Assembly (NCBI GenBank): GCA_003131315.1
Contig: PKUV01000137.1
Coordinates: 1-42,684, forward strand
Source of the DNA: Acidobacteriaceae bacterium
GTDB lineage: Bacteria > Acidobacteriota > Terriglobia > Terriglobales > Acidobacteriaceae
Reading direction: 5' to 3'
DNA: 42,684 bases
The notes below the pieces were generated by a model. It saw only the letters and a program-made list of their open reading frames with translations. It did not search any database and had not been told where the DNA came from. Of this stretch, positions 5,078 to 23,824 are shown in pieces. A program made the translations under genes and the position numbers. Positions within the stretch are counted from its first letter, which is position 1, and the number at the start of each line of letters is the position of its first letter.

Positions 5078-5149
5078 CGAGGAGACTGGCGCACGCCGAT
5101 AGGTGGAAGTGTTTCGAGAGATGTACGCAGGGTGGTCAGGACAAACAGA

Positions 5150-6202
5150 ATGAAGATTGGCTATCTTTTAGACACACATGGCGGACCGTATGACCAACCA
5201 CCGCCCAGTCGTGAACGGGTGAGCGCTTTTGCCGATCAGTTGCTTGAAGAGGCAGATCTGGCGGAGGCCGGCGGGTTCCACTCCATCGTCGTACCGGAAC
5301 GGCATGGTCGGACCGAGTGCATGTTCCCGTCGCCGCTGATCCTGCTCTCGGCGCTCGCTACACGCACCTCCAACGCGCGTCTCGGCACTTACATATGTAT
5401 CCCGCCGCTCTATAACCCCATGCATCTGGCCGAGCAGTTTGCCATGATCGATCAACTTTCCCGGGGCCGCGTGATTGTCGGGATCGCATCGGGATATCAC
5501 AACGGGTACTGCGACTTCGTGGATGTCCCGTTCAAGGAGCGCGGCGCGCGTTTCGAAGAGAGCTATGAAATCATGATGCGCGCCTGGACCCAGGACACGT
5601 TTTCTTATGAAGGGAAGTTCTGGAAGTTTAAGGATGTGCGGCTGACGCCGAAGCCCTACCAGCAGCCAAGGCCGGAAATCTGGGTGGGCGGAATGTTCCC
5701 GAAGACAATCGCGCGAGCCGGGCGGCTGGGGGATGCGTGGTGCAGTGATCCGTTTCCATTGGACCCGAAGGTCTGGAATGCACAGGTGAAAACTTATCGC
5801 GACGAGGCCAAGAAGCACGGCAACAAGTCGATGGTGGTGCTAATGCGGGACGGCTGGGTGTCGCGACGGCGGGAAGAGTCCGACGAAGTTTTTCTGGACC
5901 TAGCGCTCCAGGAGTGGCTGTTCTACTACCGCTGGGGAATTCTCACCCATCACCCGGAATTTCAGAAGGAATCCGATTTCACGCGCGATCGGGCGCGCCG
6001 GCACTTTATCACCGGAACACCGGAAGACTGCATTCGGCAGGCACAGCGCTATGGGAGCGAGTTCGACACCGACTACCTGATTATGCGTTTTCGTTTGCCG
6101 GCGGGCCCGGAACGGCAGAAGGTTCTCGATTGTCTGAAGTTGTGGGGAAAAGAAGTGATGCCGGCGTTTCCCGCGCAACCATCGGTTGGTGTGAACTTAT
6201 AG
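5150..6202 (+). CDS. LLM-class (bacterial luciferase-like) flavin-dependent oxidoreductase
   Basis: The start is ATG 5150, with AGGA eight bases upstream; the in-frame GTG at 5132 has no better site. The 350-residue protein has luciferase-family TIM-barrel landmarks. These are an N-terminal MKIGYLLDTHGG strand, the LARLGTYI-like strand (ARLGTYICIPPLYNPMHLAE), the DQLSRGRVIVGIASGYH segment, and KPYQQPRPEIWVGG. LLM enzymes use FMNH2 or F420 for monooxygenation, Baeyer-Villiger-type insertion or hydride transfer. It lies third in the receptor operon, 8 bases ahead of the CMD-like gene. Its C-terminal portion (FITGTPEDCIRQAQRYGSEF) is the usual end of the fold. Substrate and cofactor are not determinable here. 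Confidence 0.85.
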   Translation: MKIGYLLDTHGGPYDQPPPSRERVSAFADQLLEEADLAEAGGFHSIVVPERHGRTECMFPSPLILLSALATRTSNARLGTYICIPPLYNPMHLAEQFAMIDQLSRGRVIVGIASGYHNGYCDFVDVPFKERGARFEESYEIMMRAWTQDTFSYEGKFWKFKDVRLTPKPYQQPRPEIWVGGMFPKTIARAGRLGDAWCSDPFPLDPKVWNAQVKTYRDEAKKHGNKSMVVLMRDGWVSRRREESDEVFLDLALQEWLFYYRWGILTHHPEFQKESDFTRDRARRHFITGTPEDCIRQAQRYGSEFDTDYLIMRFRLPAGPERQKVLDCLKLWGKEVMPAFPAQPSVGVNL

Positions 6203-6210
6203 GAGGCCAG

Positions 6211-6768
6211 ATGCCCGTTTTACCGCTCGTAAAACCCGAAGACATGGAACCGGATATTCGGGAAGCCATGCAGATGTTTCAAGACTGGATCGGTGATTCG
6301 ATCTATTCGCAGTTTATGGCGCACGTCCCTGACATTTTTCGGAAGTTTAATGAGTTCTACATGCTGATGCTGAATGGCCGGGTCGAATCCGAACCCAAGG
6401 AGTTAGCCCGGCTGCGCATGGCCCGGTTGAATAGCTGTGAGTATTGAAAGTCCGCCAATACCGTCTGGGCCAGACGGAACAACATACCGGAAGCGAAACT
6501 GCGGGATCTCGATCATTATTGGGATTCGGATGCCTTCACCGAGAGGGAGAAGGCGATTTTCAAGCTGGCGGATTGGCATACTTTCGGATCGAAAGGCCGA
6601 ATTGATGCCGAAGATCTCGCTTTGCTGCAGAAGCACTTCACCAATCCGGAGATCGTGGAACTGGGCTGCTATTTCGCGGTAGTAAGTGGATTCCAGAAGT
6701 TTAATTCCGTCTTCCAGATTGAGTTTGCCTGCCCGCTTCCGCAGCTGGGAGAGAGCGGTCACGACTAG
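6211..6768 (+). CDS. Carboxymuconolactone decarboxylase/AhpD-like protein; candidate selenoprotein (in-frame TGA at codon 79)
   Basis: ATG 6211 follows AGGAGG. Read through the TGA at 6445-6447, the frame runs to TAG 6766-6768 and gives 185 residues. Both halves are clearly one CMD/AhpD-like protein. Before the TGA stands ELARLRMARLNSCEY, and after it WARRNNIPEAKLRDLDHYW, DAFTEREKAIFKLADWH, and HFTNPEIVELGCYFAVVSGF, as in actinobacterial relatives. The TGA falls exactly at the second Cys of the family's redox CxxC motif (Cys76-Glu-Tyr-TGA79). A perfect six-bp hairpin with a GGGCC loop starts 14 bases after the TGA, where a bacterial SECIS belongs. Selenocysteine insertion is therefore the best reading, giving a CxxU redox centre. 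Family members act as peroxidases or decarboxylases; the role here is unknown. A recent nonsense mutation or a TGA-recoded pseudogene is the alternative. Conventional gene callers would stop at 6447. Confidence 0.72.
6445..6477 (+). promoter_or_regulatory. Candidate bacterial SECIS element (UGA plus hairpin)
   Basis: The TGA (6445-6447) is followed by the stem CCGTCT (6461-6466), loop GGGCC (6467-6471) and stem AGACGG (6472-6477). One more G-C pair could form and close a three-base loop. There are 19 bases between the UGA and the loop, and the loop starts with G; both match the published rules for bacterial SECIS elements. The hairpin lies inside coding sequence that is conserved at protein level, so it must satisfy both constraints. 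Confidence 0.65.
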
Positions 6769-6939
6769 CGAAGTGAGGCGAAGTTGCCCTGGTGTCCTGA
6801 GCCCGAAGACTGTGAATCAAGTCGCGGGGCTTTGAAAGGCGGAGCCTCAGCCGCTCCGAAACGTACATTGTTCAAGACCCGGCTTTGGCTTTCGGGCGGC
6901 AGAGGGTGGCGAGGCCGCGTCATTCCCGATAAAGTGGTA

Positions 6940-6981: not shown

Positions 6982-7000
6982 TGGCTTGGAAGGAGAACGA

Positions 7001-7552
7001 ATGAGTAACGCTCCCGGCAAGCCGATGTCATTGATCATGGGCGGCGCCGACAGCGCCGGGCCCTCGCAGCCGAAGATTCATGAACGCAACGTCAATGTGA
7101 AGGTGATTGACGAAGGGAAGCCGTACCTGCGAATCCATGCTTCCTTGCTCGACGTGGAACACAGCTTTCAGGCGGAGATGGTGGTGGACATCGCCACCGG
7201 CCGTATCGAAGAGGTCGCCGCTGCGATGGCGCAACGGCCGTACCAGAGTTATTGCCCCAATGCGTTGGGCACCGTCCAGAAGTTGAAAGGGGACGTGATC
7301 GGGCCCGGGATCAGCCGACGCATTATCGAGAAGGTCGGACGTAGCGCGGGATGTTTTCACCTGGTCGAGATTTTTCAGGCGGCAGTGAGTTTTGCCGCCA
7401 CCATCCTGATCGGGAAGCGGGCCTTGGCGGACGGGTTGGCGGGCGAAACGGCGGGGTCCGAAGACGAACACCGCGAGAAGTGGATGCCATATTTGAAGAA
7501 CACTTGCCAGGTTTTCCGCGTGGATGACCTGGCGAGCGGGCGCAAAGAATAA
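7001..7552 (+). CDS. DUF2889 family protein
   Basis: The start is ATG 7001, with AAGGAG eight bases upstream. The 183-residue protein carries DUF2889 landmarks as I remember them: YQSYCPNALGTVQKLKGDVI followed by GPGISRRIIEKVGRSAGCFH and LVEIF. That is the conserved CP, L-G, IGPG and GC-HL pattern. No signal peptide or membrane segment is visible. The two Cys and the His-Leu-Val-Glu segment could form a small metal or ligand site, but this is speculation. It opens an eight-gene operon that continues with an IpdA/IpdB-like pair ten bases downstream. Its tight control by the shared operator argues for a direct role in the pathway. No reaction is known to me for this family. Confidence 0.8.
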   Translation: MSNAPGKPMSLIMGGADSAGPSQPKIHERNVNVKVIDEGKPYLRIHASLLDVEHSFQAEMVVDIATGRIEEVAAAMAQRPYQSYCPNALGTVQKLKGDVIGPGISRRIIEKVGRSAGCFHLVEIFQAAVSFAATILIGKRALADGLAGETAGSEDEHREKWMPYLKNTCQVFRVDDLASGRKE

Positions 7553-7562
7553 CGGAGAAGCG

Positions 7563-8462
7563 ATGGCGGCTGGCAAAGAGAACAAAGTGATGTCGGCGGC
7601 GCAGGCAGTTGGCATGATCCGCGACGGCGACACCGTCGCGATTCAGGGCATGGGTACGCAGATGAGCCCGTTGGCGCTGGTGCGGGAAATTATCAAGGCA
7701 AGGAAGCGCAATCTGATCGCAGCCATGATCGTGGGCGGGATCGGGCTCGACTGGCTGATTGCGGCGGGCTGCGTCAAGAAAGTCATGGCCATCATCGTGA
7801 ACCTCGACGAGTTCGGCATGGCCAACGCTTTCCGCCGCGCGGTTGAAGCGGGCGAACTCATGATGGAGGAGTATACCGAGCACCAGATGTTGACGCGCTT
7901 CAGCGCCGGTTGTTATGGTTTGCCATTCATGACCACACAATCGGGAATAGGCAGTGCCATCGTCGATCTCCATCCCGACACAACGAAGGTGATTGATTGT
8001 CCTTTCACCGGACAGAAAGTGATCGCATGCCGGGCGCTCACACCGGATGTTTGTATCCTCCACGCCCACCGCGCGGATGAAGTCGGCAATGTGCAGTTTT
8101 TTCCCAAGCCGATCTGGGGAGACGTGGATGTTTTCCCGCGAGCCTCCAAGAAAGTGATCGTCACCGTCGAAGAGATTGTTTCTACGGACGAGATTCGGCG
8201 CACGCCGGAACGTACCGGCCTCCCCTATTTCAAGGTAGATGCGGTGGTCCCGGTGAAGTACGGGGCGCATCCCTGCTCTCTTTTTCCCAGGTATAACTTC
8301 GACCGGCAAGTGATGGAACGGTACGCGGCCGAATCGCGCACACCGGAAGGGACGCAGGCCTTTCTCGAAAAGTACGTCCGAGCGCCCAGGACCCAGGAGG
8401 ATTACCTGGATCTCGTCGGCGGTTCGACGATGGAAGCGCGGATCCAGAGCTTTTGGAGTTGA
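7563..8462 (+). CDS. IpdA-like class I CoA-transferase-fold protein, alpha subunit (set 1)
   Basis: ATG 7563 follows GGAGA. The 299-residue protein belongs to the glutaconate CoA-transferase/IpdA branch of class I CoA-transferases. It shows GMIRDGDTVAIQGMG at the N-terminus, then LDWLIAAGCVKKVM and the YTEHQMLTRFSAGCYGLPF segment. In M. tuberculosis IpdAB the equivalent alpha-chain Glu drives hydrolytic opening of a cyclic beta-diketone-like CoA ester rather than CoA transfer. Here Glu106 occupies that place. The next gene encodes the partner beta chain and the frames nearly overlap, so a heterodimer is expected. Whether it is a ring hydrolase or a true CoA-transferase cannot be settled by eye. 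Two more sets lie at 26895-28602 and 35296-36969. Confidence 0.88.
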   Translation: MAAGKENKVMSAAQAVGMIRDGDTVAIQGMGTQMSPLALVREIIKARKRNLIAAMIVGGIGLDWLIAAGCVKKVMAIIVNLDEFGMANAFRRAVEAGELMMEEYTEHQMLTRFSAGCYGLPFMTTQSGIGSAIVDLHPDTTKVIDCPFTGQKVIACRALTPDVCILHAHRADEVGNVQFFPKPIWGDVDVFPRASKKVIVTVEEIVSTDEIRRTPERTGLPYFKVDAVVPVKYGAHPCSLFPRYNFDRQVMERYAAESRTPEGTQAFLEKYVRAPRTQEDYLDLVGGSTMEARIQSFWS

Positions 8463-8479
8463 GTAGTTTGGTGACGAGA

Positions 8480-9292
8480 ATGTCGAAGCTTTCTGAAGAT
8501 TACACGATCGACGAGCTGATGGTGGTCACGCTAGCCCGGCAGTTCACGGATGCCGACATCATGCTGAATGGCACAGTGTCCTACATTCCGGTGTCAGCTT
8601 TCATGCTAGCCCGGGAGACGCACGCTCCCAAGCTGACGTGGGTGGCCGGCGCAGTAGGAGTGGACGCTGATCCCGGCTACATCGTCGGCAACACGCTGGA
8701 TCCTACGATGTGGAAGGACTGCGTCATGTATCTGCCCCAGATCAGCGACATGTGGGGCTACGTGCACAGCAACACGCTGGAGACGTTCTGCATTCGAGGC
8801 GCGCAAATTGATAAGTACGGCAATGTCAATAACAGCGTGATTGGGAAGGACTATCACCGGCCCAAAGTCCGTCTGCCCGGTTCGGCGGGTATGGGCGACA
8901 TGTGCTCGCTGCACAAGAAGATTTACATCTGGTCGACGACTCACAATCCGAGGACCTTCGTCGACAAAGTCGATTTCCTCGCTGCACCCGGATATCTGGA
9001 TGGGGGCGATGCGCGCGCCAAGTTGGGTCTGCGCAACGGTCCCGAGGTGGTGGTGACCGACCTCTGTGTGATGGACTTCGAGCCCACCAGCAAACGCATG
9101 CGGTTGAAGTCGGTGCATCGCGGGGTGTCCGCGAAGCAGGTGCAGGACGAGACGGGGTTCGAACTCGTCACGCCGGATCATGTTCTAGAAACCCCCGCGC
9201 CCAGCGTCGAAGAGATTGAATTATTGCGCAAGAAGATCGATCCCAAGAACATGCGCAAAATCGAATTTCGCGGTTCGAAGACGAAGGTTTAG
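8480..9292 (+). CDS. IpdB-like class I CoA-transferase-fold protein, beta subunit (set 1)
   Basis: This 270-residue chain is the partner of the gene ending at 8462. ATG 8480, preceded by GACGAGA, is the most plausible start; the frame is open upstream and TTG 8453 or GTG 8471 are possible. Conserved features of IpdB/glutaconate CoA-transferase beta chains are visible: FCIRGAQIDKYGNVNNSVIG, RLPGSAGMGDM, RTFVDKVDFL, and VVTDLCVMDFEPTSKRMRL followed by KSVHRGVSAKQVQDETGFEL. The PGSAGMGDM loop corresponds to the PGxxG binding loop of the family. It would act in the cytoplasm on a CoA thioester together with its alpha partner. A 22-bp inverted repeat begins three bases after the stop. Confidence 0.87.
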   Translation: MSKLSEDYTIDELMVVTLARQFTDADIMLNGTVSYIPVSAFMLARETHAPKLTWVAGAVGVDADPGYIVGNTLDPTMWKDCVMYLPQISDMWGYVHSNTLETFCIRGAQIDKYGNVNNSVIGKDYHRPKVRLPGSAGMGDMCSLHKKIYIWSTTHNPRTFVDKVDFLAAPGYLDGGDARAKLGLRNGPEVVVTDLCVMDFEPTSKRMRLKSVHRGVSAKQVQDETGFELVTPDHVLETPAPSVEEIELLRKKIDPKNMRKIEFRGSKTKV

Positions 9293-9325: not shown

Positions 9326-10462
9326 ATGGGGGAGATCAAACTCGGTGTGCCCGGCAGCATCATGCCGCCATTCGATAAGGTGATTCAGCAGGCGCAGCGC
9401 GCTGAGAGCAAGGGGTACGACTCAGCGTGGTGGCCGTGTCATCTCATGGGCTGGCATCCGCGCTCCATCTGGACGCCGGATATCACGCCACTCGCCAAAT
9501 ATCAGAAGAGTGCCGATGTATACTTTGACCCTATCGCTGCGTTATCGGCAGTAGCGGCGACCACAGAGAAAATCCAACTTGGCATCGGCGTTACCGATAT
9601 TATTCGCCGCCATCCCGCCATGCTGGCGCAGGCGGCGCTGACGCTGGACCATGTTTCGCGGGGACGTCTCATTCTCGGCCTCGGGTCGGGCGAGCAGTGC
9701 AATCTCACGCCCTATGGTTTCGATTTCGCACAGCCGGTCGGAAAACTCGAGGAAGGACTGCAAGTTCTCCGGCTGATGTGGAAGTCGGCTGGGGATCCGG
9801 TGGATTTTCACGGAAAGCATTTCCACCTGGAAGGCGCTGTTCTTGGCCTCGAGCCATACGAAGGAAAGCCGCCCAAAATTTGGGTCGCAGCGCACGGGCC
9901 GCGCATGCTCAGCCTCACCGGAAAGTACGCCGATGGATGGCTGCCCACGATGATGACTCCGGCGGAATATAGTCAGAAGCTCTCGGTCATTCGCAAGACG
10001 GCTGCGGAGTGTGGACGCAGCGGCGATGCGGTGGAGCCGGGCATGCTCGCGTATGTGGTTGTTGATGAAGACCGCAAGGCCGTGCCGCAGCTTCTCGATC
10101 ATATCCTGGTGAAAGGACTCTGTCTGCTGCTGCCGGCGGAGGTCTTCAAGAGATTCGGCTACGAACCGCCGTTTGGGGAGGGCTCGGCTGGGTTTCACGA
10201 TTATGTTCCCTCACTCTTCGGGCGCGAGGACGCGGTGCGGGTCATCAACAAAGTGCCGCGTGAGGTTGTCGAATACTTCACGCTGCACGGCACTCCGGAA
10301 GATGTGGCGGAGCAAGTGACCGCTCTTGCCTCGGCGGGATTGAGGCACGTTGTGCTCTGGAACATCACCGCGTTTGCGGACCCGGGGCGCGCGAAGTCAT
10401 CGTTCCAATGCATGGATCGTCTAAAACAGTTGCTGAGCGCGACGACGACAGCAGTTCAGTAA
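9326..10462 (+). CDS. LLM-class flavin/F420-dependent oxidoreductase
   Basis: ATG 9326 follows GGAGAG. The 378-residue protein is a second luciferase-family TIM barrel, distinct from the one at 5150. It has IKLGVPGSIMPPFDKVIQQA, a QAQRAESKGYDSAWWP segment, EKIQLGIGVTDIIRRHPAML, TLDHVSRGRLILGLGSGEQ and PPKIWVAAHGPRMLSLTGKY. The ALTLDHVSRGRLILGLGSG block is typical of F420-dependent methylenetetrahydromethanopterin-reductase-like members, though FMN enzymes share it. It lies in the middle of the IpdAB-like operon, so it probably reduces or oxygenates a pathway intermediate. The F420-versus-FMN choice remains open; there are no F420 biosynthesis genes in the window. Confidence 0.83.
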   Translation: MGEIKLGVPGSIMPPFDKVIQQAQRAESKGYDSAWWPCHLMGWHPRSIWTPDITPLAKYQKSADVYFDPIAALSAVAATTEKIQLGIGVTDIIRRHPAMLAQAALTLDHVSRGRLILGLGSGEQCNLTPYGFDFAQPVGKLEEGLQVLRLMWKSAGDPVDFHGKHFHLEGAVLGLEPYEGKPPKIWVAAHGPRMLSLTGKYADGWLPTMMTPAEYSQKLSVIRKTAAECGRSGDAVEPGMLAYVVVDEDRKAVPQLLDHILVKGLCLLLPAEVFKRFGYEPPFGEGSAGFHDYVPSLFGREDAVRVINKVPREVVEYFTLHGTPEDVAEQVTALASAGLRHVVLWNITAFADPGRAKSSFQCMDRLKQLLSATTTAVQ

Positions 10463-19325: not shown

Positions 19326-20210
19326 ATGGGCGCAATCGATGTGTGGTGCAATCCTTTTACTCCCGAAGGCATCCAGCACCTCTTTATTGACAATGAAGAG
19401 GTCTACTTCATGATGGGCACGCAATGGGGACGCACGGAAAACATGAAGGGCTATTCGGCCAAGGAGTTTGTCGCCCACATGGACAAGATCGGCGTCGAAA
19501 AGGTTTGTGTGCCGGCGCTCAAGCAGGCGTTTTATCGCAAGAACAAGATGGGCGCCGATTTCAAGTACGAAGACATTGCCAGCCTCGTCCGGCAGTATCC
19601 GGATCGGATTGTCGGCTTGGCGGGTATCAATCCGTTCGAGCGGATGGAAGGTGTGCGCAAGCTGGAACACGCCGTCAAGGAATATGGGTTTAAGGGAGCG
19701 CATGTGCATCCGTTCGGTTTCGGCCTCCCGATCAACGCCGCGGAATGGTTTCCGTTTTATGCCAAGTGCGCGGAGCTGGATATCCCCGTTGTTTTTCAGG
19801 TCGGGCATTCGGCCGAGTTCATGCCCAGCGCACATGGACGGCCCATTCTCCTGGACGACATCGCGCTCTACTTCCCCGAGTTGAAGCTGATCGGCGGACA
19901 TACGGGCTGGCCTTGGGTGGAAGAGTTGATCGCCATGGCGTGGAAACATCCCAACGTGTACATCGCGGTCAGCGGGCACGCACCCAAATATTGGGAAAAG
20001 AATCTAGTGCATTTCCTGAACAGCCGCGGCAAGGGGAAGGTGGTGTGGGGCACGGATTATCCGCTGATCCTGCACGAAGAGAGTCTGAAGCAGATCGAGC
20101 AGCTTAAGCTAAAGCCTGAAGCCAAGCAGGCGCTGCTGCACGATACGGCAGCGGCGATCTTCAAGTTCGAACCAGCTTCCGCAAAAACTGCTGCGGCCAA
20201 AAAGAAGTAA
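19326..20210 (+). CDS. Amidohydrolase-2 family protein with altered N-terminal metal motif
   Basis: The 294-residue protein is an ACMSD/amidohydrolase-2 type TIM barrel. RYPDRIVGLAGINP-like sequence (QYPDRIVGLAGINPFERMEG) is followed by GFKGAHVHPFGFGLPINAAE, VVFQVGHSAEF, LKLIGGHTGWPWVEELIAMA and KVVWGTDYPL. The barrel's inner His residues (GHS, GGHTGWPW) and the Asp of WGTD are present. The usual HxH at the start of strand 1 is absent: the protein begins MGAIDVWCNPF. Family enzymes are non-oxidative decarboxylases or hydrolases of ring-cleavage products. The gene lies between the epimerase-like gene and enoyl-CoA hydratase, so an acyl-CoA-related hydratase or decarboxylase role is possible. 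The Ala/Lys-rich tail (KTAAAKKK) is probably disordered. Confidence 0.82.
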   Translation: MGAIDVWCNPFTPEGIQHLFIDNEEVYFMMGTQWGRTENMKGYSAKEFVAHMDKIGVEKVCVPALKQAFYRKNKMGADFKYEDIASLVRQYPDRIVGLAGINPFERMEGVRKLEHAVKEYGFKGAHVHPFGFGLPINAAEWFPFYAKCAELDIPVVFQVGHSAEFMPSAHGRPILLDDIALYFPELKLIGGHTGWPWVEELIAMAWKHPNVYIAVSGHAPKYWEKNLVHFLNSRGKGKVVWGTDYPLILHEESLKQIEQLKLKPEAKQALLHDTAAAIFKFEPASAKTAAAKKK

Positions 20211-20235
20211 GCTTGTCGCCCGCGAGGGCACGACG

Positions 20236-21033
20236 ATGACTTTTGATTCTTTCAAGTTTCTCAGCGTGGAGCAATCGGGTGGTGTCACCACCGTGTATCT
20301 CGACAAGCCTCCCGCCAACACTCTCGACAACGACCTCTACGCCGAGTTGATTAGCCTCAGTGACCAACTCGACGCCGATGGGGAAACCCGAGCGGTCGTC
20401 TTCGCCAGCCGCCATCCCAAAATTTATATTGCCGGCGCGGATATCAAGCGGATGAAAGAGTACCGCTTCGAGGCGGACTATGTGGACGGCGTGATCGCGC
20501 GCGTGCGCCAGACCCTCGGCCGCATCGAGCTTATTACCAAACCCACCATCGCCGCGATCACCGGCTATGCACTCGGCGGTGGCTGCGAGTTTTCCCTTTG
20601 CCTGGATTTCCGCTTCATGAGCCGCGGTCAGGCTCGCATTGGTTTGCCAGAGGTGAACATTGGCATCATTCCGGGCGGCGGCGGGACGCAACGTTTGCCG
20701 AGAGTCGTCGGCTATGCCAAGGCGCTGGAACTGATGATGACCGGCGTCTACCTCGATGCGGATGAGGCCGCTCGTATCGGGCTTATCCATCGAGCCTGTG
20801 ACGCCGACCAAACCATCGCGGAAGCTCAAAAGTTCGCAGCGCAGCTGGCCGCCCAGGCTCCAGTTGCCATCGCGCTGATCAAGAAGTGTCTGCGTGAATC
20901 GATCGGCAGAACCTACGACGCTGGTTTCGCCGTCGAAAAAGAACACTGCAAGCAAGCCGTGCTCTCGCAAGATGCGCGCGAAGGGATAGGCGCATTCGTA
21001 GAAAAGCGGAAGCCGCATTGGGTGGGCAAATGA
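20236..21033 (+). CDS. Enoyl-CoA hydratase/isomerase
   Basis: The 265-residue crotonase-fold protein starts at ATG 20236. The CoA-binding oxyanion segment IYIAGADIKRM is present. Both catalytic Glu residues of hydratases are in place: Glu118 in GYALGGGCEFSLCLDF and Glu139 in IGLPEVNIGIIPGGGGTQRL. It would hydrate a 2-enoyl-CoA to the 3-hydroxyacyl-CoA. Its stop overlaps the next gene (ATGA at 21030), indicating translational coupling with the first Cys-less thiolase-fold protein. A C-C hydrolase of the same fold cannot be excluded, but the two Glu favour hydration. Confidence 0.93.
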   Translation: MTFDSFKFLSVEQSGGVTTVYLDKPPANTLDNDLYAELISLSDQLDADGETRAVVFASRHPKIYIAGADIKRMKEYRFEADYVDGVIARVRQTLGRIELITKPTIAAITGYALGGGCEFSLCLDFRFMSRGQARIGLPEVNIGIIPGGGGTQRLPRVVGYAKALELMMTGVYLDADEAARIGLIHRACDADQTIAEAQKFAAQLAAQAPVAIALIKKCLRESIGRTYDAGFAVEKEHCKQAVLSQDAREGIGAFVEKRKPHWVGK

Positions 21034-22169
21034 TGGGCCGCGTAGTCATTGTCGGAGCGGTGCAGACCAGGTACGAGCCGCGCAAAGCGCACCAGGCAAT
21101 CAACGAACTGGTGTACGAGGTGGTTGCCGGCCTGCTGAAGCAGACCGGTGTTCGCATGCAGGAAATCGACAGCATGGTTACCGCTTCGCAGGATGCTTGG
21201 GATGGCAAGACAATTTCCTCAATGTCGGTCAACGAAGTCGTGGGTGCATACCTCAAATCCGAGGCCAAGGTTGCCGCCGACGGGATTCAGGCATTGATCT
21301 ATGGCGCCGCCCGCATCCTTGCTGGAGCTTTCGACTACACGCTGATCGTGGCCCACTGCAAAGAGTCCGAAGGGCAGCCGGATGAAATCACAAAGGTGAT
21401 GTTCGATCCATTTTGCGAGCGTCCTCTCGGCCTAAATGACGCGGTGGCAGCGGGCTTGCAGGCGCGGCGATACATCAGTGTGGCGGGGATCGATTCGCGG
21501 GCGCTGGCGCTGGTTTCGCAGAAGAATCATCGCAGCGCCAAGCGCAATCCCCTGGCTCAACGCAGCGGGGATTACTCGCTCGACGAAATTCTTGCGGCAC
21601 CAAGTTTTGCGGACCCGCTTACCGAACTGATGGCAGGTCCGCGCTCTGACGGCGCCTGCGCCCTGCTGCTTGCGAGCGCGGAGAAAGCCGCGGCCTTCGG
21701 TGACCGCGCTGTTTGCATTGCCGGCATGGGGAACTCGACCGACTCTTACTGGACGGATCGCGATCTCTCCGAGGCAGAAGCTCTCCGGCAGGCGGCGCAG
21801 CGCGCGTACACGAAAGCAGGCATTTCTCCGGACCAGGTCGACGTCGCCGAGATTTCAGCCCGCTACGCGCACGAAGAACTGCTATACGGGGAAGCTCTGG
21901 GGCTCTGGAAGCGTGAGGAATTGAGCGCTCTGCTCGCCGAGAAAAATCCGCTGCGAAAGCGCACCAAGGTGAATCCATCAGGCGGGCCCATCACCGGAAA
22001 TCCTACGACAGTTGCCGGACTTGCCCGCGTGGCAGAAGGCTATCTGCAGCTTGCCCAACTCGCTGGCGATCGTCAGGTTCCAGGCGCCCAGGTGGCCGTG
22101 GCGCACGGAGCTTCCGGAGTTTGTGGACAAAGTCAATCGGTCGTCATCCTGCGACGGGGGAATGCATAG
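21030..22169 (+). CDS. SCP2/Ltp-type thiolase-fold protein without catalytic Cys or His (copy 1)
   Basis: The 379-residue protein has the thiolase fold of the SCP2-x/lipid-transfer branch: an N-terminal VVIVGAVQTRYEPRK, the YSLDEILAAPSFADPLTELM segment, and a C-terminal NPSGGPITGNPTTVAGLARV. The nucleophilic Cys position reads Ala82 (KVAADGIQAL), and the usual GHP is GNP. It is therefore not a standard thiolase. Known Cys-less relatives such as Ltp2 act with a DUF35 partner as retro-aldolases in steroid side-chain breakdown. Two DUF35 genes follow in the same operon. A paralog lies immediately downstream. The fold is sure; aldolase activity is inferred. Confidence 0.85.
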   Translation: MMGRVVIVGAVQTRYEPRKAHQAINELVYEVVAGLLKQTGVRMQEIDSMVTASQDAWDGKTISSMSVNEVVGAYLKSEAKVAADGIQALIYGAARILAGAFDYTLIVAHCKESEGQPDEITKVMFDPFCERPLGLNDAVAAGLQARRYISVAGIDSRALALVSQKNHRSAKRNPLAQRSGDYSLDEILAAPSFADPLTELMAGPRSDGACALLLASAEKAAAFGDRAVCIAGMGNSTDSYWTDRDLSEAEALRQAAQRAYTKAGISPDQVDVAEISARYAHEELLYGEALGLWKREELSALLAEKNPLRKRTKVNPSGGPITGNPTTVAGLARVAEGYLQLAQLAGDRQVPGAQVAVAHGASGVCGQSQSVVILRRGNA

Positions 22170-22171
22170 AT

Positions 22172-23329
22172 ATGGCCGAGCGAGTAGCCATCGTCGCCAC
22201 CGGACAGACCCGGCACACGGCCAAGCGTCTCGACGTCAATCTTCGCGAGCTGATCACCGAAGCAGTGACGCGCGCACTCGAAGATGCCGATCTTCGGATA
22301 CAGGATATCGATGCAGTTTTCCTCGGAAATATGGAGCCATTCGAAGGTTTCATGTTTCCCGAATTGTGGAGCGTAGAAGGCTGGGGCGGCTACGGCAAGC
22401 CGGCGATCAAGTTCAACACCGGCGGCACCGTGGGTACGACCACAACGATGGCTGCTTACTACTATCTGGCAGCCGGACTCTACGAAACGGTGCTGGCCAT
22501 CGGTTTTGAGAAGCAATCGGAAGGACACACGCAAGCGGCGATCACGACCGTGGGGGATCCCATTTGGGAGCGCACCATGATGGCGGGTGCGGTCGGCAAC
22601 TTTGCCGTCATGGCCAGCACCTACGTTCACGAAAGCGGAGTTACCCCCGAGCAGGCGGCCAAAGTGGCGGTGAAGGCCCGTCGCAATGCATGTAACAACG
22701 AATACGCACATCTCCAGATGCCGAACATCACTGTTGAAGAAGTGATGCAATCGCAGATGCTCGCCCATCCCATTCGCAAGCTCGACATGTGTCCGCAATC
22801 CGATGGTGCAGTGGCGATGGTTCTGGCCTCTGAGGCGAAGGCAAAAAAGCTGGCCAGCCGTCCGGCATGGATCAAGGCCGTTGCGACTGCCCACGAGCAG
22901 CAATACATGGGCGATAGCCCGAAGCGTCTGGCCATCATGCGGAGCCAGGTGACAGCGTCGCAGAAGGTATACAAGGCGGCCGGTATCGCGAATCCGCGCA
23001 AGGATCTGGACGTCGCGGAAATCTACGAAGTCGCCACTTACGCCGAGATGGCGATGTACGAGAATCTCGGCTTCTGCGAGCGTGGGCAGGGAGGCGTATT
23101 GATTGATCAGGGCGTCACCAGCATGGAAGGGGAGCTTCCAGTGAACCCGTCAGGTGGCGTGCTGAGCGCGAATCCGATCGGAGCCACGGCGATGATCCGC
23201 GTGGCGGAAGCCGCATTGCAGGTGATGGGCAAAGCAGGGAAGCGCCAGGTGCCGAACGTTCACACCGCCCTTGCTACCGGGTACGGCGGCAATGCCTGGA
23301 CAGATGCTCTGATTCTGAGCAGTCGATAA
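22172..23329 (+). CDS. SCP2/Ltp-type thiolase-fold protein without catalytic Cys or His (copy 2)
   Basis: The start is ATG 22172, two bases after the previous stop. The 385-residue protein is a diverged paralog of copy 1. It has VAIVATGQTRHTAKRLDVNL, the NMEPFEGF segment, the LDMCPQSDGAVAMVLASEAK block and NPSGGVLSANPIGATAMIRV. The Cys position is Thr83 or Gly84 (KFNTGGTVGTTTTMAA) and GHP is again NP. Two adjacent, non-identical chains that lack the same catalytic residues suggest a heteromeric complex. One chain may be catalytic and the other structural, probably with the DUF35 proteins that follow. Tyr-rich stretches (AAYYYLAAG) are present, but I cannot assign a catalytic Tyr. Confidence 0.85.
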   Translation: MAERVAIVATGQTRHTAKRLDVNLRELITEAVTRALEDADLRIQDIDAVFLGNMEPFEGFMFPELWSVEGWGGYGKPAIKFNTGGTVGTTTTMAAYYYLAAGLYETVLAIGFEKQSEGHTQAAITTVGDPIWERTMMAGAVGNFAVMASTYVHESGVTPEQAAKVAVKARRNACNNEYAHLQMPNITVEEVMQSQMLAHPIRKLDMCPQSDGAVAMVLASEAKAKKLASRPAWIKAVATAHEQQYMGDSPKRLAIMRSQVTASQKVYKAAGIANPRKDLDVAEIYEVATYAEMAMYENLGFCERGQGGVLIDQGVTSMEGELPVNPSGGVLSANPIGATAMIRVAEAALQVMGKAGKRQVPNVHTALATGYGGNAWTDALILSSR

Positions 23330-23338
23330 GGAGACAGC

Positions 23339-23824
23339 ATGGTTTCCGTGCAGAAAGTCGAAGCCGTAAAAGAAGCGCTGCGCGTACCGTTTCGCATGAA
23401 GCTTGAATTCGATTACGCGATGGGCGCGCACGCGGAGAGATTTTTCCATGCCTTGCGCGATCACGCGCGCATTCTCGGCGTGAAATGTCCCGCTTGCAAA
23501 CGTGTTTACGTTCCGCCCAGGCCGGTGTGTGGAATCTGCTTTGTCGAAACCAGGGATTGGGGTGAGGTCAGCGACGAAGGTACGCTGGTCGGCTGCACGG
23601 TTGTCGATCTGCCTTTTATCGATCCTATGACGGGCGAGCGCCGTCCGGTGCCGTACGGATTTGCGATCATCCGCCTCGATGGCGCCGATACCGCCATGTA
23701 TCATTTCCTCGAGGAAACCGATCCGAAGAGGATGTATGTTGGTCAACGGGTGAAGGCGGTGTTCCGCGAGCAGCGCACCGGCAGCTTACAAGACATACTG
23801 CATTTCCGGGCGGTGCAAGGATGA
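23339..23824 (+). CDS. DUF35 OB-fold/zinc-ribbon protein (copy 1)
   Basis: This 161-residue protein has a rubredoxin-like zinc ribbon with Cys50, Cys53, Cys64 and Cys67 (KCPACKRVYVPPRPVCGICF). An OB-fold follows, with EGTLVGCTVVDLPFIDP and PVPYGFAIIRLDG. DUF35 proteins are the small partners of thiolase-fold enzymes: ChsH2 with Ltp2, BbsA with BbsB, and the archaeal thiolase/HMG-CoA synthase complex. They help hold the CoA chain. ATG 23339 follows GGAGAC. The stop overlaps the start of copy 2. It most likely pairs with one of the two thiolase-fold proteins upstream. Confidence 0.88.
   Translation: MVSVQKVEAVKEALRVPFRMKLEFDYAMGAHAERFFHALRDHARILGVKCPACKRVYVPPRPVCGICFVETRDWGEVSDEGTLVGCTVVDLPFIDPMTGERRPVPYGFAIIRLDGADTAMYHFLEETDPKRMYVGQRVKAVFREQRTGSLQDILHFRAVQG

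Follow-up and report, generated by a model that had tools for sequence, protein, structure and literature searches.

The window, i.e., the whole stretch of 42,684 nucleotides that was analyzed, makes up nearly all of a 47-kb contig (C24) of an acidobacterial genome of 6.0 Mb, which is assembled in 194 contigs, 99.7% complete and 2.4% contaminated. Among a series of catabolic genes it carries a gene for an AhpD-like, CMD-fold protein whose frame contains a TGA codon, and this gene directly follows that of a luciferase-like oxidoreductase, LLM1 (Table 1). When the TGA is read as selenocysteine (Sec), the frame at 6211-6768 can be written as M...CEYU(79)KSAN...*, with no further internal stop. 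The earlier note on this DNA, made from the letters alone, had pointed to exactly such a single TGA in an otherwise continuous frame of 185 codons, and this was borne out. The ATG lies 8 nt past the stop codon of LLM1; with the ribosome-binding site overlapping that stop codon, it is likely that translation of the selenoprotein gene is coupled to that of the upstream monooxygenase gene.

Table 1. Features of the selenoprotein locus and its surroundings, in window coordinates
Feature	Position	Strand	Basis
LLM1, luciferase-like (flavin/F420-type) oxidoreductase, constant neighbor of the selenoprotein gene	5132..6202	+	profile matches, locus comparison
Ribosome-binding site AGGAGG, overlapping the LLM1 stop codon	6201..6206	+	sequence; purine-rich equivalent 5' of the gene in L060 and L061
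Selenoprotein gene, AhpD-like/CMD-fold, 185 residues with Sec79	6211..6768	+	frame, Pfam, alignment, fold model
In-frame TGA, read as Sec79; motif Cys76-Glu-Tyr-Sec79	6445..6447	+	frame; single conserved column in 43/43 TGA-bearing rows
SECIS-type hairpin, 7 bp stem CCGUCUG/CAGACGG, loop GGC	6461..6477	+	folding, covariation, published bacterial SECIS model
DUF2889 protein, in 5/5 compared loci (L060, L061, L070, L071, L072)	6998..7552	+	
CoA-transferase-family gene pair (7524-8462, 8453-9292), also in L060 and L061	7524..9292	+	
LLM2, second luciferase-like oxidoreductase	9326..10462	+	
Amidohydrolase_2, enoyl-CoA hydratase, two SCP2-type thiolases, ChsH2-type OB-fold protein	19326..23824	+	

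The closest relatives of the window gene are found in two genomes of the same genus, MAGs from palsa and bog (loci L060 and L061). The read-through protein matches the Pfam CMD model PF02627 with 27.8 bits (gathering threshold 23) over residues 40-121, a match that spans the TGA, and when the two parts of the protein are matched separately, the identity to L060 is 82% ahead of the TGA and 76% beyond it, and that to L061 81% and 73%, respectively; the protein is CMD/AhpD-like on both sides of the TGA, as had been claimed. Within the set of three formed by the window gene and these two loci, dN is 0.08-0.12 and dS 1.4 or more in the part ahead of the TGA, and dN is 0.15-0.18 and dS 1.6-2.5 in the part beyond it, the dS values being near saturation. 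The post-TGA part evolves somewhat faster than the pre-TGA part, yet it is still under constraint. The comparable part of the cluster was also scanned for further selenoprotein genes, with TGA set against TGA or Cys over the five loci L060, L061, L070, L071, and L072; there were many matches, and only the TGA at 6445 recurs in 5/5. The runner-up, a TGA at 7359 on the minus strand, recurs in 4/5 loci and lies opposite the DUF2889 gene; together with the remaining matches it was judged from position to be a reading of coding sequence in another frame or on the opposite strand, or an ordinary gene end, and was rejected.

The phylum survey covered 396 genomes, a sample of a larger group, 138 of which have a match to the window gene; at least 38 of these 138 carry the Sec form. 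For the comparison of codon 79 we used an alignment of 80 usable rows out of 81 (L064 was left out), made up of the window gene, three paralogs from its own genome, loci from the phylum, contig, and genus surveys, and 40 additional loci. The column holds 43 TGA, 35 Cys, one Ala, and one Thr, and 43/80 is not to be read as a frequency because the weaker rows were selected partly for having TGA. The 43 rows are the 40 TGA matches listed in the phylum survey, the window gene included, together with L060, L061, and L065. In all 43 the TGA falls in one alignment column with a Cys three residues earlier, i.e., it takes the place of the second Cys of a CxxC, which upholds the position assigned to it in the earlier note. 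Neither TAA nor TAG occurs within the matched stretches of the 80 rows; the one TAG flagged, in G318, lies at a C-terminal end, and in G377 an additional TGA, situated where the match ends, was trimmed as the gene stop. On the tree the window gene falls into a clade of six rows (window, L060, L061, L031, L032, L033; SH-aLRT 98%), whose other members are 46-79% identical to it. TGA is present in 6/6, so that every clade member seen is a Sec form.

In other collections, one scan of genome contigs gave two relatives, and viral contigs gave six pattern matches and no relative. A plasmid collection gave 22 records, every one below 60% identity; the top match, from Novosphingobium PP1Y, is a CxxC form, and over 18.5 kb of that plasmid the matches were limited to the N-terminal half of this gene and to SDR-type ones.

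The source genome has the machinery for Sec insertion. SelB (381 bits, cut-off 242), selA (535 bits, cut-off 268), and selD (363 bits, cut-off 125) all score well over their models' cut-offs, and a tRNA-Sec is found with 68 bits (cut-off 47), which ARAGORN also reads as tRNA-SeC with anticodon tca; these genes sit on contigs C6, C140, and C12. Two more loci exceed the cut-off for tRNA-Sec, at 49.7 and 48.1 bits, one of which ARAGORN reads as tRNA-Ser and the other as nothing, so only the 68-bit locus was counted. As a side observation, selD (L026/L027, C12:14353-15381) has an in-frame TGA near its start within the stretch AAGUASKL, and from this sequence the selenophosphate synthetase SelD of the source genome is probably a selenoprotein itself. 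Across the phylum, selA, counted as present at E <= about 1e-60 (252 genomes, versus 250 counted over the model cut-off), is found in 37/38 genomes with a listed TGA form versus 44/100 other CMD-bearing genomes (Fisher p ~7e-10, the genomes not being independent); the one TGA-bearing genome lacking a selA match, G104, is 91% complete. In the genus, selA is over the cut-off in 20/24 genomes.

A short hairpin lies downstream of the UGA. It is 17 nt long, has its apical loop starting 20 nt past the UGA, and folds with -9.1 kcal/mol when taken alone; for the 46 nt from the UGA on, the value is -10.2 kcal/mol. The bacterial SECIS model given in PMC13188914 specifies a loop of 3-9 nt, an upper stem of 4-16 bp, a G in the first two loop positions, a distance of 16-37 nt from the UGA, and an MFE <= -7.5 kcal/mol, and the hairpin at 6461-6477 agrees with the constraints as stated there. 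Compared with shuffles, the 17-nt hairpin alone is the sole stretch that stands out (z -2.8); the 46-nt stretch from the UGA (z -0.56) and an 81-nt stretch (z -0.28) fold no better than shuffles, and Rfam returned no match on 6100-6900.

When a single fixed rule is used for every row, the mean hairpin energy is -8.5 kcal/mol in the 43 Sec rows versus -2.2 kcal/mol in the 37 non-Sec rows (Mann-Whitney p ~4e-12, relatedness uncorrected), and the 5% level of codon shuffles is reached by 31/43 Sec rows versus 2/37 non-Sec rows. The 43 Sec rows represent 35 distinct stretches, which, unselected on pairing and placed in the window's register, have 194/245 paired cells, the shuffle maximum being 163. 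In 24 of the 35 the hairpin register is kept (at least 6 of 7 pairs), with 167/168 paired cells, a figure inflated by the choosing on pairing; the loop, which was not chosen on, is GGC in 24/24. Among these 24, six of the seven pairs occur with two or more Watson-Crick types, and pair 1 and pair 3 each show four Watson-Crick combinations. None of the 37 non-Sec rows has six or more pairs in this register. The other 11 distinct Sec stretches depart from this register, each with a hairpin that is shifted or wider-looped and, in L116, weak.

With the machinery, the TGA column, the dN/dS values, and a covarying hairpin in agreement, the selenocysteine reading that the earlier note had put forward is strongly supported, and on this sequence evidence we put the probability that the window gene encodes a selenoprotein at about 0.97. 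The two lookups which that note had proposed point the same way: codon 79 of the homologs is Cys or TGA in 78/80 rows, the exceptions being the Ala and the Thr, and selA, selB, selD, and tRNA-Sec are all four in the same genome. It had also named Trp or random stops at this codon as signs of a pseudogene; Trp is found in 0/37 non-TGA rows, and the stretches are free of internal TAA and TAG.

Sec and Cys have been exchanged repeatedly in this group. On the tree, at least 12 changes between Sec and non-Sec are needed, five of which are forced by well-supported branches. One case was noticed separately: the Cys gene L039 (genome G226) shares 79% identity with its Sec sister L057 (G095) and retains a SECIS-like hairpin at the same position with -10.7 kcal/mol. 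G095 has selA, and G226, which is 77% complete, is absent from the selA matches. By its sequence, L039 would seem to have switched from Sec to Cys recently and to have kept a relict SECIS.

The predicted structure of the protein (pLDDT 91.8) has nine helices in an all-helical AhpD-like fold, and its best PDB matches are AhpD-core peroxidase-related proteins with TM ~0.79 (2PRR, 0.79/0.77). The proton relay of AhpD is described in PMC3141380 as Glu, Cys, His or Tyr, Cys, and His. The window protein keeps four of the five positions as Glu64, Cys76, Tyr78, and Sec79, and the last His is replaced by Asn83, i.e., the relay is incomplete. Asn at the position of the relay His is found in 14/43 Sec rows versus 1/35 Cys rows; because all 14 of these Sec rows fall in two tree clades, we treat this apparent co-occurrence in the alignment as a lead and not as a statistic. 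In a second Sec group (L092, L107, L108, L110-L114) the motif is C-x-F-U, and Asn stands at +4 in place of the relay His as it does in the window clade.

Family models place the protein only broadly. The two best NCBIfam models, NF053654 (YciW-related (seleno)protein; 54.0 bits, cut-off 310) and TIGR01926 (peroxidase-related enzyme; 42.6 bits, cut-off 81.8), both match across the Sec codon with scores far below their cut-offs, so the window protein belongs to neither family as curated; TIGR04169 gives 23.2 bits (cut-off 120). It also differs from 4-carboxymuconolactone decarboxylase proper (gamma-CMD), which according to the account in PMC3141380 has no CxxC centre, in that a CxxU/CxxC centre is present. 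Overall, we hold it very probable that the window protein is a selenoprotein carrying a redox centre within an AhpD-like fold, whatever its substrate, and we are fairly confident that it is a redox enzyme working through the CxxU.

LLM1 is the closest associate of this selenoprotein. In three genomes from other families of the phylum (G377, G331, and G323), the selenoprotein gene lies near LLM1, the DUF2889 gene, and a gene for a TonB-type outer membrane protein, and the block found at 19326-23824 in the window adjoins the selenoprotein gene there, following it. With presence taken as E below 1e-90 (the thresholds of this comparison were set by us), LLM1 is found in 4/396 phylum genomes, and these are the same four that have the best selenoprotein matches; the best four matches listed in the phylum have E <= 2.2e-50, and the next one has 2.1e-19. 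Within the genus, LLM1 is present in 3/24 genomes, and close copies of the selenoprotein occur in the same three only, among the 23 genus genomes listed. The cluster looks accessory and has perhaps been moved horizontally.

The wider gene content was noted as an observation in its own right: the genes between 1014 and 39602 make up a long island for acyl-CoA catabolism. It encodes a TonB-type outer membrane protein, two luciferase-like enzymes, several CoA-transferase-family proteins, an acyl-CoA ligase, an acyl-CoA dehydrogenase, a BaiCD-like Old Yellow Enzyme, ETF together with a membrane Fe-S protein, and SCP2-type thiolases with ChsH2-type partners. From such gene annotations the neighborhood reads as a pathway for acyl-CoA catabolism. 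Part of the island genes are presumably IpdAB-like, and by resemblance to known genes (ChsH2-type, BaiCD-like, and these IpdAB-like ones) our guess for the substrate would be a steroid-like compound. A luciferase-like monooxygenase is reported in PMC12239570 to be a Baeyer-Villiger enzyme acting on progesterone; this is a precedent for luciferase-like enzymes in steroid breakdown, and it is no evidence for the pathway of the island. A cofH homolog is also present in the source genome (L122, C153:53830-54864; 484 bits, cut-off 374), and 3/14 control genomes pass the cut-off as well. This homolog suggests coenzyme F420 synthesis in this acidobacterium, and as it is over the cut-off, F420 is a plausible cofactor for the luciferase-like enzymes.

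At neutral pH, a selenol exists mostly in its deprotonated form, and it needs less help to reach it. In the mechanism we propose, SelB on the hairpin at 6461-6477 would bring Sec-tRNA to the UGA at 6445, and the product would be an all-helical AhpD-like protein with Cys76-Glu-Tyr-Sec79 as its redox centre. The selenolate of Sec79 would attack an oxidised substrate, either a peroxide or a disulfide, and Cys76 would resolve the intermediate as a selenenylsulfide, possibly assisted by Glu64 and Tyr78. Owing to the property of the selenol just mentioned, the protein, with Asn83 at this position, may do without the relay His of AhpD. The enzyme would most likely act beside LLM1 in the acyl-CoA catabolism of a perhaps polycyclic compound, either clearing the peroxide of uncoupled flavin turnover or keeping a pathway enzyme reduced. 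Whether it serves the flavin enzymes as such a peroxidase or disulfide reductase we regard as an even bet; the missing relay His and the presence of a debrominase among the close fold matches both count against a peroxidase role.

The alternative that survives best keeps the selenoprotein and assigns it a dedicated catabolic step in place of a peroxidase or helper role, e.g., the reductive removal of a halogen or another leaving group, or an isomerisation. The distribution speaks for it, as the gene is linked to LLM1 (three of 24 genus genomes) and not to the Sec trait (selA in 20 of 24), and so do the absent relay His and the presence of the CMD-fold debrominase Bmp8 (6OHI/6OHJ, TM 0.79) among the best fold matches; the entry title of 6ohj gives the Bmp8 C82A mutant with tribromopyrrole, which indicates that a CMD fold can bind a small organic molecule for chemistry. 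However, Bmp8, known here by its entry titles, is only 17% identical to the window protein and a weak sequence match (E 3e-4), and the peroxidase-related proteins equal Bmp8 as fold matches. We consider a dedicated step unlikely, though worth keeping in view.

Much further down stand the readings in which the TGA does not mean Sec. Decoding of the TGA as a different amino acid, or programmed read-through or termination that yields a designed 78-residue product, is highly improbable: the 37 non-TGA rows have 35 Cys, one Ala, and one Thr at this codon and never Trp; two of the eight cluster genes whose stops were read end in TGA, which means that TGA is still a stop in the source genome; and the hairpin fits the SECIS constraints. 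A pseudogene, in which the TGA would be an inactivating nonsense mutation in a CxxC protein, could appeal to the interrupted frame and to the fragmented assembly of 194 contigs, but it is scarcely credible against a TGA that is retained in five clade relatives at 46-79% identity and confined to a single column in 43/43 TGA-bearing rows, a post-TGA dN far under dS, a covarying hairpin 3' of the TGA, and Sec machinery in the genome. Pseudogene, other recoding, and designed truncation were therefore all rejected on the conserved column, the selection, the hairpin, the machinery, and the Cys instead of Trp in relatives.

The selenoprotein reading has precedents. CMD/AhpD-like CxxU selenoproteins were published in 2005 (PMC1088965), 2008 (PMC2398784), 2022 (PMC9312934), and 2026 (PMC13188914), and AhpD-like selenoproteins are also found in PMC1794560 (2006), so that, going by these accounts, the window protein is of a kind known since 2005 and its novelty is less than the earlier note implied. 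The 2006 survey counts four selenoproteins in three families for all Acidobacteria sequenced by then (PMC1794560), and in the earlier accounts AhpD-like selenoproteins are given no function, while a related type is described as joined to an arsenite methyltransferase domain. Of 13 papers retrieved on selenoproteins in Acidobacteria, none names this family in its title. The nearest known proteins are the AhpD-like 2/CMD selenoproteins of the Sargasso Sea and GOS surveys (PMC1088965, PMC2398784), which, as described there, share pfam02627 and the CxxU with Sec at the second Cys. Those are marine metagenomic proteins to which the descriptions assign no pathway, whereas the window gene comes with a genome, neighbors, relatives, and a clade with Asn at +4. 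The AhpD-like peroxidase-related structures (2PRR, 2OYO, 3C1L, and PA0269 in 2IJC/2O4D) have the all-helical AhpD fold and the Glu, Cys, Tyr, and second-Cys positions of the relay in common with the window protein, which differs from them in having Sec for the second Cys and Asn for the relay His. What look new are this branch and its tie to the gene cluster of one breakdown pathway.

An annotation that takes TGA as a stop would split the window gene, so that one redox enzyme belonging to a conserved catabolic cluster would be overlooked. Through the tie of the clade to one flavin-type enzyme, the function of an AhpD-like selenoprotein can be addressed by a concrete experiment. A bolder proposal, in which Sec79 performs an obligatory catalytic step together with the luciferase-like enzyme in an acyl-CoA breakdown pathway of Acidobacteriota for which we found no described counterpart, is in our view distinctly doubtful; if it were true, growth on one class of polycyclic compounds would depend on selenium. 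The phylum-wide survey weighs more than the single window gene: with at least 38 genomes carrying the Sec form, a covarying SECIS, at least five forced switches, and a relict hairpin in a Cys gene, this AhpD-like group with its Sec and Cys forms makes a natural test of why Sec stays or goes.
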